Source: an uncultured Clostridia bacterium (lineage in GTDB: Bacteria > Bacillota > Clostridia > Peptostreptococcales > Anaerovoracaceae). From it: 26,414 nucleotides of DNA. Under the pieces are notes generated by a model that was given only the letters and a program-made list of their open reading frames with translations, had not been told where the DNA came from and did not search any database. The position numbers were made by a program, and so were the translations under genes. Positions 6,594-26,414 of this stretch are shown in pieces. The stretch is taken from the NCBI GenBank assembly GCA_934234035.1, contig CAKQHH010000023.1, positions 1 through 26,414 of the forward strand, read 5' to 3'. The first letter of the stretch is position 1, and every line of letters begins with the position of its first letter.

Positions 6594-7532
6594 CTATTTC
6601 GTTGTGTCCTCGTTGTCTTCTGGTTCGTTTTTAGTCTTGTTCAGGATTTCCTCCATCAGAAAGCCTTCCCGGACGCCGTATTCCACCGTTACGATTTCTT
6701 TTACCCCGAAGACATCGGCTGCCGCATTCAGCGCCGCCATGCCCGGGAGCAAGGTGTGAATCCGTTCCGGGGCGGACCGAAGAATCAAGTCCGAGAACTG
6801 TGCCGGATTTTCTTTGTAGAATTCCAGCATTTTCTGCAAATATTTTCGGCCGTACTTCCCTTCGTTCACCGCTTCCGGATGTTTCCGCTGAAGTACCTTC
6901 ACAAAAGCTCGGCCGGCACCGCCCTCCACGCAAAGGGGAACGTGGTAGCTGCGCTTCGGCAGCCGAATTTTCTCGAAATGCTTCCGCATAGTCCGGTCGA
7001 TTTCCTTTAGCTCTTTCGGCTCCGGAATGATTTCTTTTACGTATTTCCGATACAGATTCAGAGACCCCCATGGGATGGAGGTGGACAGGAGCGCTTCGTC
7101 GTTTCGGAAGGCCACTACCTCGCTGCTTCCGCCGCCCACATCGATCATGATGCCCTCGTCCATGGAAATCTGTTGGCGCAGCCCGGCAAAACCGTAGCTC
7201 GCTTCCTGCTGTCCGCTCAGCACCTTCACCTTGTAGCCGGTTTCCTTCTCGATTTCCACCAGTACCTCTTCCGTGTTGATGATGTTCCGAAGGGGCGCCG
7301 TGGCGAACACGCCGATTTCGTCCAAACTGAACTGGTCGGTCACCGTCTTCAGTTCCAACAGGGATTCCACCGCCACCTGGATGCCTCTCTTGCGCATTTC
7401 ATGGTCTTTATTGATGTACCCGGCCAGCCCGGCGGTAATCTTTTTGTTCAGTACCCGGCGAATGGATGTTCCGTCGTATTCGAACACCACCAGCCGAATC
7501 GTATTCGATCCAATATCTATCACTCCGTACAT
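6594..7532 (-). CDS. ppx: Exopolyphosphatase / pppGpp phosphohydrolase (Ppx/GppA family)
   Basis: A 312-residue actin-like-fold phosphatase that removes terminal phosphate from polyphosphate or pppGpp. The start is the ATG at 7530-7532 with AAAGGAGAG upstream; the open frame extends 60 codons further, but that extension runs across the promoter into the repeat array and is not family-like. Visible are phosphate-binding loops DIGSNT (6-11) and DVGGGSSE (131-138), the ATAPLRN motif (78-83) and a candidate catalytic Glu110 in SGQQEA. The length fits the short, two-domain form of the family. It heads a two-gene unit with ppk, which is broken, so the remaining function would be polyphosphate or pppGpp breakdown only. 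Confidence 0.92.
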   Translation of the reverse strand: MYGVIDIGSNTIRLVVFEYDGTSIRRVLNKKITAGLAGYINKDHEMRKRGIQVAVESLLELKTVTDQFSLDEIGVFATAPLRNIINTEEVLVEIEKETGYKVKVLSGQQEASYGFAGLRQQISMDEGIMIDVGGGSSEVVAFRNDEALLSTSIPWGSLNLYRKYVKEIIPEPKELKEIDRTMRKHFEKIRLPKRSYHVPLCVEGGAGRAFVKVLQRKHPEAVNEGKYGRKYLQKMLEFYKENPAQFSDLILRSAPERIHTLLPGMAALNAAADVFGVKEIVTVEYGVREGFLMEEILNKTKNEPEDNEDTTK

Positions 7533-7572: not shown

Positions 7573-7600
7573 GTAATATTCACTATCAAATAAATGTAAA
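7573..7600 (-). promoter_or_regulatory. Probable ppx promoter
   Basis: The minus strand has TTTACA (7595-7600), a 16-bp spacer, then TATTAC (7573-7578), about 40 bp before the ppx start. It lies just outside the left end of the tandem repeat array, so the array is not in the ppx transcript. Confidence 0.5.
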
Positions 7601-7635
7601 GAAATCGTAAAAGGTGAATGGAATCGGCAGGGTAT

Positions 7636-8238
7636 CGGGGCGGCCATGGGGATGGATTCGAGGCGGCCTGTTGGCATGGCCCGACGGTTGAATCAGGCTT
7701 TGCCGGGCGCATGGCGCCAACTCGGCCGGCCGCCGGGTTCGATTCGAGGCGGCCTGTTGGCGTGGCTCGACGGTGGAATCAGGCTCAGCCGGCGGGGTAG
7801 CGCCAACATGGACGGCCGTCTCGTGGGCTCCTCGGTAAATTGTTGGCGCCTCCTAACGGTGCCGTAAGGCTTTGCCAGCTGCAAGGCGCCAACATGGACG
7901 GCCGCAGGGCAAGATTTTGGGCGGCCTGTTGGCGTGGCCCGACGGTGGAATCAGGCTTTGCCGGCGGGGCAGCGCCAACATGGACGGCCAACTCGTGGGC
8001 TCCTCGGTAAATTGTTGGCGCCCCTGGACGATGTCATAAGGCTTTGCCGGCTGCAAGGCGCCAACATGGACAGCCGCCTCCCGGGCTCCGCCGCAAATTG
8101 TTGGCGCCCCTGGACGATGTCATAAGGCTTTGCCGGCTGCAAGGCGCCAACTCGGCCGGCCGTCGGGTTCGATTCGAGGCGGCCTGTTGGCGTGTCCCGA
8201 CGGTGGAATCAGGCTTTGCCGAGCGCAAGGCGCCAACT
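7636..8238. repeat. Seven-unit, exact 86-bp tandem array of inverted-arm repeats
   Basis: The motif TGTTGGCG (or TGTTGGCA) starts at 7669, 7755, 7841, 7927, 8013, 8099 and 8185, an exact 86-bp period. Its inverse CGCCAACA (or CGCCAACT) starts exactly 46 bp after each: 7715, 7801, 7887, 7973, 8059, 8145, 8231. Each unit is therefore arm, 38 bp, inverse arm, 32 bp. The 38-bp part has two versions (units 1, 2, 4, 7 versus 3, 5, 6) sharing a GGCTTTGCC-like core. The 32-bp part also has two versions, one ending GATTCGAGGCGGCC and one with GGGCTCCTCGGTAAAT, plus a hybrid between units 3 and 4. It is GC-rich compared with its flanks. Since 86 is not a multiple of 3, the frames it leaves open are not proteins. 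It sits between ppx and the IS relic. Confidence 0.95.
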
Positions 8239-8290
8239 CTAATCATCGCATCGTGTATCTAGCTCTATTCTGAATTTAGCGCCATCAAAA

Positions 8291-8331
8291 ATTGACGACA
8301 GGCCCTCACTTTCTCATGGTCTGTCGTCAAT
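8291..8331. repeat. Hairpin repeat, 11-bp perfect arms
   Basis: ATTGACGACAG (8291-8301) pairs with CTGTCGTCAAT (8321-8331) around a 19-nt loop; a few further pairs can form inside. The outer arm sequence is shared with the hairpin at 8478-8522, so the two appear related. There is no clear U-tract and no gene ending nearby, so it is not read as a terminator. Confidence 0.8.
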
Positions 8332-8477
8332 CTAGTGTTTCCTTTATATATTTCACTCTAATTCATTTATATAATAGCATCAAAATTCCTTCTTTTCACA
8401 CGAATTTCCTGCTTTCAAGACCTCATTCCACCCGCTCCCCTCAGCATTCCACTCTAATCTACCCGACGGTCGCGGAG

Positions 8478-8522
8478 AAATTGACGTCGGAACTTCGGGG
8501 GAGAGCGTTCCGTCGTCAATTT
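8478..8522. repeat. Hairpin repeat, 16-bp arms with one mismatch
   Basis: AAATTGACGTCGGAAC (8478-8493) pairs with the segment at 8507-8522 with one mismatch, around a 13-nt loop. It is enclosed by a further perfect inverted pair: CCACTCTAAT (8449-8458) and ATTAGAGTGG (8549-8558). CACTCTAAT also occurs at 8354-8362. The enclosed 110 bp looks like a small mobile or formerly mobile palindromic unit. Confidence 0.75.
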
Positions 8523-8558
8523 CTTCCGATTTCCCGAAAACATCCCTTATTAGAGTGG

Positions 8559-8580
8559 CCTTCACGAATATTCGTGAAGG
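8559..8580. repeat. 22-bp perfect palindrome
   Basis: Positions 8559-8580 read the same on both strands (CCTTCACGAAT and its complement). It is placed between the outer inverted repeat ending at 8558 and the left hairpin of the IS relic. It could be a cruciform or a dimeric-protein site; no gene starts next to it. Confidence 0.75.
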
Positions 8581-8598
8581 TCCAAGAGAAAAAACCAT

Positions 8599-9263
8599 CC
8601 CCGCGTCAAACGCAGGGTTTTTAACGACAGGGCAAAGCCCATGCTCCTCGCGTTACGCGTACAACGCGTAATATAATCTGCCAACTGCGTATTTCATAAA
8701 CTACTTTCTCTTTTTTCTATACTTTTCAGTTTCTGGAATACTTAGCTGTTCTCCTAATTTGTCTTCATCCAATTGATGTCGTATATATTCCGCAATTCGG
8801 CGTTCATTTTTTCCGACTGTATCAACATAATATCCTTTACACCAAAATGATCGATTTCGATATTTGTATTTTAAATCGCCGAATTGCTCGTAAATCATCG
8901 TGCTACTTTTCCCTTTCAAATATCCCATAAATGACGATACTGAAATCTTTGGTGGGATTTCCACAAAAAGGTGAATGCGATCTGGGCAAGCTTCTGCTTC
9001 AAGAATTTTTATTCCTTTCCATTCACAAAGCTGTCTTAATATTTTCCCAATGGCCACTTTCTTTTCTTCGATATTTCGGTGCAAATACTATGTGATATTT
9101 GCAATTCCACTTCGAGTGCGCTAAACTGTTTATGTCATTAAGACCCATGTTTTCCTCCTTTTTAGAATACGCAGTTGGCAGACCGCATCTTTGTTCTAAC
9201 TTTCGGAGGATTTCTGGTCAAACGCATAGCGTTCACGGAACCCCGCGTCTAACGCGGGGTTTT
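8599..9263 (-). mobile_element. IS200-type insertion sequence relic
   Basis: A single Y1 transposase gene is flanked by similar hairpins in the same orientation, as in IS200/IS605 ends: 8599-8617 (CCCCGCGT and ACGCAGGG, one mismatch) and 9239-9261 (perfect 10-bp arms). A 17-bp perfect inverted pair, TCTGCCAACTGCGTATT at 8677-8693 and its inverse at 9166-9182, closely encloses the gene, and a further perfect 8-bp hairpin lies at 8653-8671. The true cleavage points are not determined. The transposase is broken, so the copy cannot move by itself. Confidence 0.7.
8701..9148 (-). pseudogene. tnpA: IS200-type Y1 transposase, frameshifted
   Basis: From an ATG at 9146-9148 with AAGGAGGAAAAC upstream, the frame reads NSLAHSKWNCKYHIVFAPKYRRK, the usual IS200 TnpA N-terminus, then runs out. 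The rest is in another frame from near 9075: IGKILRQLCEWKG, VSSFMGYLKGKSS and GYYVDTVGKNERRIAEYI. About six residues normally between the two parts are missing, consistent with a deletion of about 17 bp. The metal-binding HUH motif, normally PDHVH, reads PDRIH, so its first histidine is lost. The tyrosine in AEYIRHQ is kept. The enzyme would normally transpose single-stranded DNA; this copy is dead by two independent lesions. Confidence 0.85.
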
Positions 9264-9265
9264 CT
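9239..9265 (+). terminator. Strong hairpin with T-tract at the IS edge
   Basis: Perfect 10-bp stem (9239-9248 with 9252-9261), loop CTA, followed by T-rich sequence on the plus strand. It resembles the hairpin at 8599-8617 and is probably an IS end structure that would also terminate plus-strand transcription. Confidence 0.6.
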
Positions 9266-9271
9266 TTATAC

Positions 9272-9310
9272 AAAAAGGCGCCGGATGAAGTCCTCATCCG
9301 GCGCCTTTTT
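9272..9310. terminator. Bidirectional terminator after trxA
   Basis: A 17-bp perfect stem (9272-9288 with 9294-9310), core GGCGCCGGATGA, loop AGTCC, with A5 on one side and T6 on the other. It ends trxA transcription on the minus strand and would also stop plus-strand readthrough from the IS. Confidence 0.9.
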
Positions 9311-15136: not shown

Positions 15137-16552
15137 TTACACTTCCGGCGCAACGCACACATAACCGGTTTCATCCACGCCGATCACCGTTTCGTTCCGG
15201 CGCACCCGCTCCTGCAGGTATTGAACCGCTTCTTTTGTCAGAATTTCACCGGGGCAGGCCAGCGGAATCCCCGGCGGATACGGAATCAGGGAATCGTACA
15301 GAGGGCGGCCGGCCGCCTCCGCCAGCGGAATTCGTTCTTTTATTGACGGAATCGGTCCTTGCTCCAGATTAAATGCAAGATAATCTTCGCTGCGCCCCGC
15401 CTCGTTTTCCGTAATCCCGTACTTTCCGCTGATGTGCTGAAGGGCTTCCAGCAGTTTTTCGTAATCTTGCCGCTCGTTTCCCAGGCCGGTCATCAGCATA
15501 GTGTAATCTCCGTGGACCATTTCCACCCAGATATTCTGCTCTTGCAGCTCCGCCGCCAGCCGCTCCCCGCCGAAACCGTAAGGCTTCATGTTCAGGTTGA
15601 TTTTGCTCCAATCCATTTCCCGGTTCTCGATTACCGAAAGGCCGGTGACGGACCGGTAATTCTCGTAGAAATACTGCAGGTCGGACTGCCAGGCCCGGAA
15701 AAGCTCCCGGCCGTGACGCAGGATTTTCTCGTTCACGTCCAGGCTTCCCATCAGAATGTAGGAAGGGCTGGTGGTCTGGAGCATCCGCACCGTCTCCGAA
15801 ATCCGGGAAACGTCCACCCGGTCGCTGCACACGTTGAGGATGGCGGTCCCCGTAAAGGACATCAGGGTTTTGTGCGTGCTGTTCACCACCAGATCCGCCC
15901 GCAGGTTTTCCGCCGCCCGTTTTTTCCGAGCACCCTCGTCAAAGAATTTCAAATGAGCACCGTGGGCCTGATCCACAATCAGTACCATTCCCGCCGCATG
16001 AGCCTCCAGGGCGATGTCCTCAATTTCCGAAAGCACCCCGTAATAGTTGGGGCTGGTCACCAGCACCGCCGACGCATCCGGATGCTCCCGCATCGCCGCC
16101 GCCACATCTCGCGGGGAAATCGCCCCCTGCAGCCCGGTCTTCTCATCCGTCATGGGCTGCACGTACACCGGCTCAATGCCTCCCAACCGAAGGGCCGAAA
16201 ACACCGATTTGTGGGAGTTCCGCCCCATAATCAGCTTGCCGCCCCGCGGCATCGTCGCCAAAACAGACGCGATCAGCCCGGTGCTGCTTCCGTTCACCAA
16301 CAGCTCCGTATGCCGCACACCGTAAAGCTCTGCGTAATTCTCCATCACTCGGCGAATCACCGACTCCGGCTGGGTCAGCGCATCCGCCCCCGGAATCTCC
16401 GTGATGTCGCTGCCCATGATGTTCTTCAGAAAATCGCCGTACCCCATCTCCTTGTACAGCCGGCTCCGCCCCTTGTGCCCCGGCATATGGAAGGATATGG
16501 GATTTTGGCGTTTGTGCTCCACCAGAAAATCCGTCACCGTTCTTCTATCCAT
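15137..16552 (-). CDS. Orn/Lys/Arg decarboxylase family protein
   Basis: A 471-residue fold-type I PLP enzyme that removes the carboxyl group of a basic amino acid, giving a polyamine precursor. The start ATG (16550-16552) has GAGGG 7 nt upstream; a longer frame begins at a TTG inside the preceding terminator tail. Visible are HMPGHKGR (22-29), the phosphate-binding NGSSTG (87-92), DQAHGAH (194-200) and the Schiff-base lysine in STHKTL (Lys228). It lacks the N-terminal response-regulator-like wing domain of the large enterobacterial enzymes and matches the short Gram-positive type. Substrate (arginine, lysine or ornithine) is not decided by sequence. No clear terminator is seen before rnf. 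Confidence 0.9.
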   Translation of the reverse strand: MDRRTVTDFLVEHKRQNPISFHMPGHKGRSRLYKEMGYGDFLKNIMGSDITEIPGADALTQPESVIRRVMENYAELYGVRHTELLVNGSSTGLIASVLATMPRGGKLIMGRNSHKSVFSALRLGGIEPVYVQPMTDEKTGLQGAISPRDVAAAMREHPDASAVLVTSPNYYGVLSEIEDIALEAHAAGMVLIVDQAHGAHLKFFDEGARKKRAAENLRADLVVNSTHKTLMSFTGTAILNVCSDRVDVSRISETVRMLQTTSPSYILMGSLDVNEKILRHGRELFRAWQSDLQYFYENYRSVTGLSVIENREMDWSKINLNMKPYGFGGERLAAELQEQNIWVEMVHGDYTMLMTGLGNERQDYEKLLEALQHISGKYGITENEAGRSEDYLAFNLEQGPIPSIKERIPLAEAAGRPLYDSLIPYPPGIPLACPGEILTKEAVQYLQERVRRNETVIGVDETGYVCVAPEV

Positions 16553-26148: not shown

Positions 26149-26215
26149 ATTGTTTTTTGAGGTGGCGCCGGCGACTGGGGGGGATGGGCGGCAGGTGCCG
26201 GCGGGCGCCCGGCGC

Positions 26216-26414
26216 GGACTTGGTGCACAGACCCCCGCAAGGCCTTGTTCTTTCGTTCCCTTTGCACCAAGTCTCCGGACCTTTTCCACGCCCGGCCGGC
26301 GCGGACTTGGTGCACGAACCCCCGCAAAGCCTTGTTCTTCCGTTCCTTTGCACCAAGTCTCCGGACCTTTTCGGCGCCCGGCCGGCGCGGACTTGGTGCA
26401 CGAATTCCCGCAAA
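26216..26414. repeat. Second 86/87-bp tandem array of inverted-arm repeats, runs off the window
   Basis: GGACTTGGTGCAC starts at 26216, 26303 and 26389 (periods 87 and 86). The inverse arm TGCACCAAGT starts at 26263 and 26349, about 45 bp after each first arm. Between the arms the units share CCCCGCAA, CTTGTTCTT and CGTTCC; between units they share CTCCGGACCTTTT and CGCCCGGC. The sequence is unrelated to the array at 7636-8238, but the unit length and arm spacing are nearly the same. Frames left open here are not proteins, because the period shifts frame. The number of units beyond the window is unknown. Confidence 0.9.

Follow-up and report, generated by a model that had tools for sequence, protein, structure and literature searches.

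Introduction

Palindromic repeats of the REP/BIME type are common, and both their role and the constraint that duplex geometry may place upon them remain open questions. The neisserial intergenic mosaic elements (dRS3) are intergenic mosaic arrays founded on short inverted repeats, as are the arrays reported here. To our knowledge no helical ladder is known for the neisserial elements, and it is by description, not by sequence, that we set the two apart.

REP/BIME elements occur mostly in Gammaproteobacteria (PMC2817692), and they resemble our arrays in high copy number, in being extragenic palindromes, and in the preservation of pairing; mosaic arrays, restriction to a lineage, and use as targets by insertion sequences are further traits in common. 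Our arrays differ from REP/BIME in their long central core and in spacers that fall on a helical ladder. The centromere of plasmid F, parS, consists of twelve tandem repeats of 43 bp that contain 16-bp inverted repeats, and it forms a single ParB-bound site beside the partition operon (PMC6238139). Our arrays likewise consist of tandem repeats of fixed length, each with an inverted repeat; unlike parS, they occupy at least 62 chromosomal places in G001 and their binding protein is only putative.

In the arrays described below, changes of spacing seem to have been restricted almost entirely to complete turns of the helix, and by our own count at least five of them took place on one strand. This natural experiment leads one to expect proteins assembled on duplex DNA, a prediction that can be tested.

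A tandem array of inverted repeats in Mogibacterium

The window, by which we mean the whole 26,414-nucleotide stretch of DNA analyzed here, has Mogibacterium kristiansenii (G001) as its nearest genome and is Mogibacterium DNA. It contains two arrays of one repeat family, whose features are as follows.

7654..8239, plus strand: array 1, seven 86-bp units with arms TGTTGGCG/CGCCAACA (Tandem Repeats Finder, unit alignment, arm-pair match)
7668..7723, plus strand: array 1, hairpin unit 1
7754..7809, plus strand: array 1, hairpin unit 2
7840..7895, plus strand: array 1, hairpin unit 3
7926..7981, plus strand: array 1, hairpin unit 4
8012..8067, plus strand: array 1, hairpin unit 5
8098..8153, plus strand: array 1, hairpin unit 6
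8184..8239, plus strand: array 1, hairpin unit 7
26210..26414, minus strand: array 2, arms ACTTGGTGC/GCACCAAGT, period 86-87, continuing past the window end (Tandem Repeats Finder and alignment)
26217..26273, minus strand: array 2, hairpin unit
26304..26359, minus strand: array 2, hairpin unit
26390..26414, minus strand: array 2, partial third unit, cut by the window end (sequence)

Tandem Repeats Finder reports array 1 at 7654-8237, with a period of 86, 6.8 copies and 0% indels. An earlier note on this DNA had described seven units with an exact 86-bp period and a fixed distance between arms, and the data bear this out: the arm pair, separated by 38 bases (N38), is found in 7/7 units at exact 86-bp steps, without mismatch in four units, with one mismatch in two and with two in the remaining one, where 0.13 matches are expected by chance across the window. 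An eighth match, at 16210 with three mismatches, is unrelated to array 1. The note had also seen two variants of each half of the inter-arm sequence. Unit alignment agrees for the left halves, which fall into two types (units 1, 2, 4 and 7 versus units 3, 5 and 6), but not for the right halves, which come in three (units 2 and 4; units 3, 5 and 6; units 1 and 7). These half-types are combined differently among units, in support of the proposed likeness to BIME mosaics.

Three exclusions made in the note also stand. No open reading frame of at least 80 amino acids lies inside array 1, by which a coding array is ruled out; the array is not CRISPR, since its spacers are non-unique (mean identity within arrays of 78-97%, by class); and no Rfam family matches it, a search of the whole window against Rfam at the gathering threshold returning tRNA only and a search of 7600-8300 at E up to 1 returning nothing.

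Array 2, which starts shortly past tRNA-Lys, belongs to the same family as array 1 and has other arms. The second array, the conserved core and the several periods within the family did not figure in the earlier note.

Searched across named genomes, the exact arm-pair pattern returned 33 stretches, seven of them from M. kristiansenii; the remaining 26 come from unrelated taxa, contain a single match apiece and were provisionally attributed to chance. A covariance model built from 49 non-redundant units gave at least 150 matches in G001. In a scan independent of arm class, which covered the fetched stretches and the window (245 kb), 351 units score above 18, nine in the window and 342 in the G001 stretches, the latter number being a minimum because stretches were picked at reported matches and most of G001 lies outside the scan. 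As a control, shuffled sequence (99 kb, from 20 sources) produced one score above 5, at 10.8. The units make up 64 separate arrays or solo copies, with between 1 and 21 units in each, the figure of 64 being too high by one because an array on contig C9 is split by the border between fetched stretches, and they occupy at least 62 chromosomal places in G001. The check that the note had proposed, for other copies in related genomes, finds hundreds of them in G001.

Core, arms and pairing

Each unit consists of an arm, a conserved core of ~20 bp, and a pairing arm. The common core is about AYAAGGCTTTGCGG, that is, about ACGGnnGnAYAAGGCTTTGCgGG. The arms fall into six classes: GTTGGCG (82 units), CTTGGTG (75), CGTGGTG (103), GTTCGCG (28), GTTTGCG (24) and TTTTGCT/GTTTGCT (28). 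For 340 of the 351 units the closest class is the same for the two arms; in the other 11 the arms are one base apart, or two bases in one case. The arms differ between arrays yet remain complementary. The note had regarded the arms as the conserved part; they are real, but those of array 1 are one class of six, and what is conserved in sequence is the core between them.

In the 49-unit alignment, 9/11 outer pairs show changes on both sides. The covariation score of the 16-pair structure is 0.284 versus 0.159 in shuffled alignments, none of 500 shuffles reaching the observed value, and it falls to 0.065-0.095 when the structure is slid along the alignment. Two of five covariation measures are less clear, namely the number of double-change pairs (10 versus 8.0 shuffled; 15/500 shuffles) and the number of further pair types (26 versus 24.3; 114/500 shuffles), and it should be noted that the shuffles ignore the relatedness of units. 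Pairing is weak in the inner five (72.7% paired, with one double change), and RNAalifold predicts nine outer pairs and no more. Mismatches within stems, counted once per cluster in the 274-unit set, comprise 28 G-T and 20 A-C, with no clear strand preference.

A ladder of spacer lengths

Spacers were measured between invariant bases, starting at the final invariant A of a unit and ending at the first invariant T of the unit that follows. Neighbours nearly always lie head to tail: in 284 of the 289 pairs less than 200 bp apart, both units are on the same strand. The spacers of these 284 pairs measure 28 (1 pair), 37 (4), 38 (229), 39 (2), 40 (1), 47 (1), 48 (22), 59 (22), 68 (1) and 124 (1), and those of the five opposite-strand pairs measure 27, 46, 48, 69 and 116. 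That is, a ladder of 27-28, 37-40, 46-48, 59 and 68-69, with steps of ~10 bp, accounts for 287/289 pairs, leaving only 116 and 124 off it; the corresponding unit periods are about 76, 86/87, 96, 107 and 117. In the 87-bp class the additional base lies within the hairpin, and the spacer is still 38. The note's 86 bp is thus exact as the period of array 1, but what is constant in the family as a whole is the ladder, in steps of about one helical turn.

The ladder was seen first in the 274-unit set, where 59 occurred once, that is, before it was tested. Loci fetched later added 21 more spacers of 59 (arrays L193 and L198, period 107) and no new distance below 100. With the helical repeat set to 10.5, a V-test on nine spacing events (five same-strand and four opposite-strand), whose independence was a matter of our own judgement, returns p = 6e-5, and on the five same-strand events alone p = 6e-4; for the nine events p is 8e-6 at a repeat of 10.2 and 4e-4 at 10.7. 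At junctions between arm classes, in both strand relations, 12 of 13 spacers measure 27-28, 37-39, 46-48 or 59, and the thirteenth is 69.

These lengths are kept in spacers whose sequences are poorly conserved. Identity between arrays is 35% for the 86-bp class (30% when shuffled), 48% for the 87-bp class and 47% for the 96-bp class, as against 78%, 86% and 97%, respectively, within arrays. The earlier observation that length and arms are held more strictly than the remainder is supported. Spacers are not wholly unrelated between arrays, being recurrently GC-rich and then often carrying an A-tract; the GTTTGCG clusters have common spacers (78% identity between clusters), two of these four clusters being one array split by a stretch border. 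The exactness at 38, in 229 pairs, is tighter than helical phase needs and may partly reflect common descent.

Comparison with REP and other repeats

By the tests of head, transposase and orientation, the family is not REP, although it is REP-like in behaviour. The REP head GT(A/G)G, as GTAG or GTGG in the first nine nucleotides, occurs in only 4/351 units; neither G001 nor G002 has a match to PF01797, the Y1 transposase profile; and the neighbours do not alternate in orientation as in REP/BIME, 284/289 pairs being on the same strand. The family does share the high extragenic copy number of REP/BIME, with 351 units and 57 of 60 clusters free of predicted genes inside. Mobilisation by a RAYT was considered and rejected, there being no Y1 transposase in G001 or G002, and the IS200-like gene of the window being missing from the orthologous G001 locus. 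The Y1 protein of that gene passes the IS200 profile (100.1 bits, cut-off 55) and lies below the cut-off of the RAYT profile (27.9 bits versus 80); its Pfam match begins at profile position 25 of 121, so its start may be incomplete.

Integron attC sites have the core sites RYYYAAC and GTTRRRY, which on inspection are absent from the six arm classes. Among titles and the starts of abstracts, we found no literature on such repeats in Mogibacterium and, more broadly, no description of such arrays, most subscription journals lying outside the scope of this search. Some units at L054 1638-2115 contain ATAAGGCGTAGC, which is also present in a Salmonella REP (PMC2817692) and may be there by coincidence.

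Genomic setting

Most clusters are intergenic, 57/60 having no gene inside as predicted by a crude gene caller of our own making. A predicted open reading frame lies inside the other three, and at least one of these is opened by a 96-bp period: the array at L137 3353-4501, whose period is a multiple of three, opens a long frame over the repeat, and such frames may receive protein annotation. Predicted genes flank 28 of the 60 clusters at a distance of no more than 600 bp on each side; the gene pairs are convergent in 12 cases, codirectional in 14 and divergent in 2. These counts derive from the same crude gene caller, and in them the window and L047 are one locus in two genomes. Thirteen of the codirectional clusters have a single orientation; their core is antisense in eight and sense in five, which is no clear bias.

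In the window, array 1 is flanked by ppx, which lies on the minus strand and starts near 7532, and by a thioredoxin gene, both named by inspection. An open reading frame extends ppx upstream as far as 7712; the start of the G001 orthologue corresponds to about 7532 here. The flanks of this locus are 90 and 93% identical between the window and G001, where the array has five units of one type instead of seven mosaic units; period and copy number, which the note had suggested comparing between strains, are here the same and different, respectively. At the tRNA-Lys locus of G001, ten plus-strand units precede the minus-strand array.

On the thioredoxin side of array 1 lies the IS200-like transposase gene (8701-9084, minus strand), and the segment at about 8590-9273 that carries it is missing from the orthologous G001 locus. 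A second dispersed inverted-repeat family, with CTCTAAT...ATTAGAG ends and an inner GAAATTGACGAC hairpin, adjoins several arrays (window 8240-8590; L047 1713-1851; L050; L052).

An IS110-type element in the core

The core is broken at a single position by a repeated element seen at contig ends of G001. The frame of this element begins MNRILKIGMDVHSTSYTLC. A relative in G137, with a left end 78% identical and a similar right end, encodes an intact 388-aa protein that NCBIfam classes as an RNA-guided transposase of the IS110 family (NF033542, 178.5 bits, cut-off 140; PF01548 and PF02371). With repeats assigned by eye, 13 of 20 element joints lie in repeat cores, at the same point: 6/8 left-end joints, in one of which a different sequence follows the first 15 bases of the end, and 7/12 right-end joints. 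The other seven lie outside repeats, at a related motif of about ACA-AG-GYTT. Since most joints are in cores and the rest at a related motif, the arrays are a dense natural target of this element, as REP is for IS621 (PMC1525189, PMC11208160).

For one target variant out of four, the right end of the element carries a putative guide match to the core, GAAGAAAC (p = 0.03); this is suggestive only, and the match is weaker or absent for the other three variants, too weak to claim. The copy in G070 gives AAAAAGTTT (p = 0.02), and G137 gives no guide match. Relatives in other genera (L168 in G070, L169 in G137, and L170 in G351) lie in differing target sequences; they share a right end that is conserved and includes a variable segment, which is what a guide RNA would lead one to expect.

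The element thus provides a clostridial parallel to IS110-family elements residing in REP sequences. IS621, ISPa11 and ISPpu9/10 likewise belong to this family and occupy a fixed point of a palindromic repeat (PMC1525189, PMC11187229, PMC11208160). By comparison with those elements, the host repeat here is unrelated to REP by our tests, some joints lie outside repeats, and the guide RNA is putative.

Interpretation of the arrays

We tentatively read the arrays, with confidence just short of even, as a REP/BIME-like, lineage-specific satellite that acts as duplex DNA, that is, as a helically phased array of putative protein-binding sites. A protein assembly on duplex DNA fits best because the helical steps occur in spacers of varying sequence, there is no clear strand preference, and the arms are paired; we also count for it that divergent gene pairs flank only 2 of the 28 arrays whose neighbours are both known. 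If the arrays do function as duplex DNA, a putative multimeric DNA-binding protein would occupy neighbouring units side by side, all on one helical face, and changes in length would for that reason survive only as about whole turns. Tandem duplication would make arrays grow and shrink, and arrays would spread between intergenic sites. The least certain step is the cellular role, which might be chromosome architecture, supercoiling or insulation.

A stronger claim is possible but doubtful: that these repeats are a new class of bacterial chromosomal satellite, combining a core, freely changing pairing arms and helical-turn spacing, which would serve as the scaffold of a dedicated nucleoprotein assembly, and which is sparse in other genera while making up more than 1% of the Mogibacterium genome (calculated from at least 342 units of about 86 bp in a genome of 2.1 Mb).

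We consider it rather unlikely that the arrays are instead a palindromic satellite, selfish or neutral, with no role in the cell. The arms would then stay complementary because imperfect palindromes are corrected by template switching at replication, slippage would expand the arrays, and the ladder would reflect the geometry of an enzyme that copies or spreads units. Such a satellite would accord with arrays that are homogeneous within and different between, with the ppx locus, where the orthologous arrays differ in the number and the types of their units, and with strong expansion in one genus only and no partner gene seen. It is weakened by the failure to identify a mobilising enzyme, G001 and G002 having no Y1 transposase, and slippage alone is not expected to give a ladder in spacers that have diverged in sequence.

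A structured RNA could also account for arms that pair, with compensatory changes, around a conserved loop; the arrays would then be transcribed and their hairpins would act as small RNAs or as elements that stabilise mRNA. This is improbable, given that array 1 of the window is without an Rfam match, that neither the mismatches nor the orientation of genes shows a clear strand preference, and that helical steps in an unpaired spacer are unexpected for RNA.

The 13 joints at one point in cores raise the question of whether the arrays exist to host the IS110-type element, as recombination or landing sites. We regard this as very improbable: the short motif also receives seven of the 20 joints outside the repeats, so that target density may suffice, a target of this kind needs neither arms nor spacing, and the guide match is weak. 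A one-off local duplication at the array 1 locus, finally, has practically no chance of being correct, in view of the 342 further units in the G001 stretches and the second array in the window.

Related arrays in other genera

Among 349 genomes of the family, in 92 genera, the covariance model finds matches in six: G001, its sister genome G002, with one clear unit, and four with weak matches. Three of the four weak genomes, from two other genera of the family, carry hairpins whose core is the same and whose arms are unrelated, and their periods fit the ladder only roughly; the fourth, G301, was dropped for having no arms.

G243: 3 units, period 75
G244: 6 units, period 74
G126: 2 units, period 74

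As far as our searches show, therefore, hairpin arrays with the same core in other genera suggest that core and architecture predate the genus Mogibacterium, the expansion being specific to it. Relatives are under-counted, the model having been trained on Mogibacterium arms and the filters being strict.

We sampled other genera in 40 stretches (798 kb). In the first 20, a looser test found 11 hairpins versus 5 in shuffled sequence, of which one in G244 and two in G126 were accepted; a stricter test recovered the six G244 units, with two matches in shuffled sequence. About 0.62 Mb of G244 held no array besides the six-unit one. Viral contigs returned two stretches for a first pattern, with no convincing hairpin, and none for a second. 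The last 260 bases of a G002 contig (C3, L156) form a coreless 53-54 bp tandem array whose arms are GTTGGCGCC, which ends with the contig and was left out of the counts.
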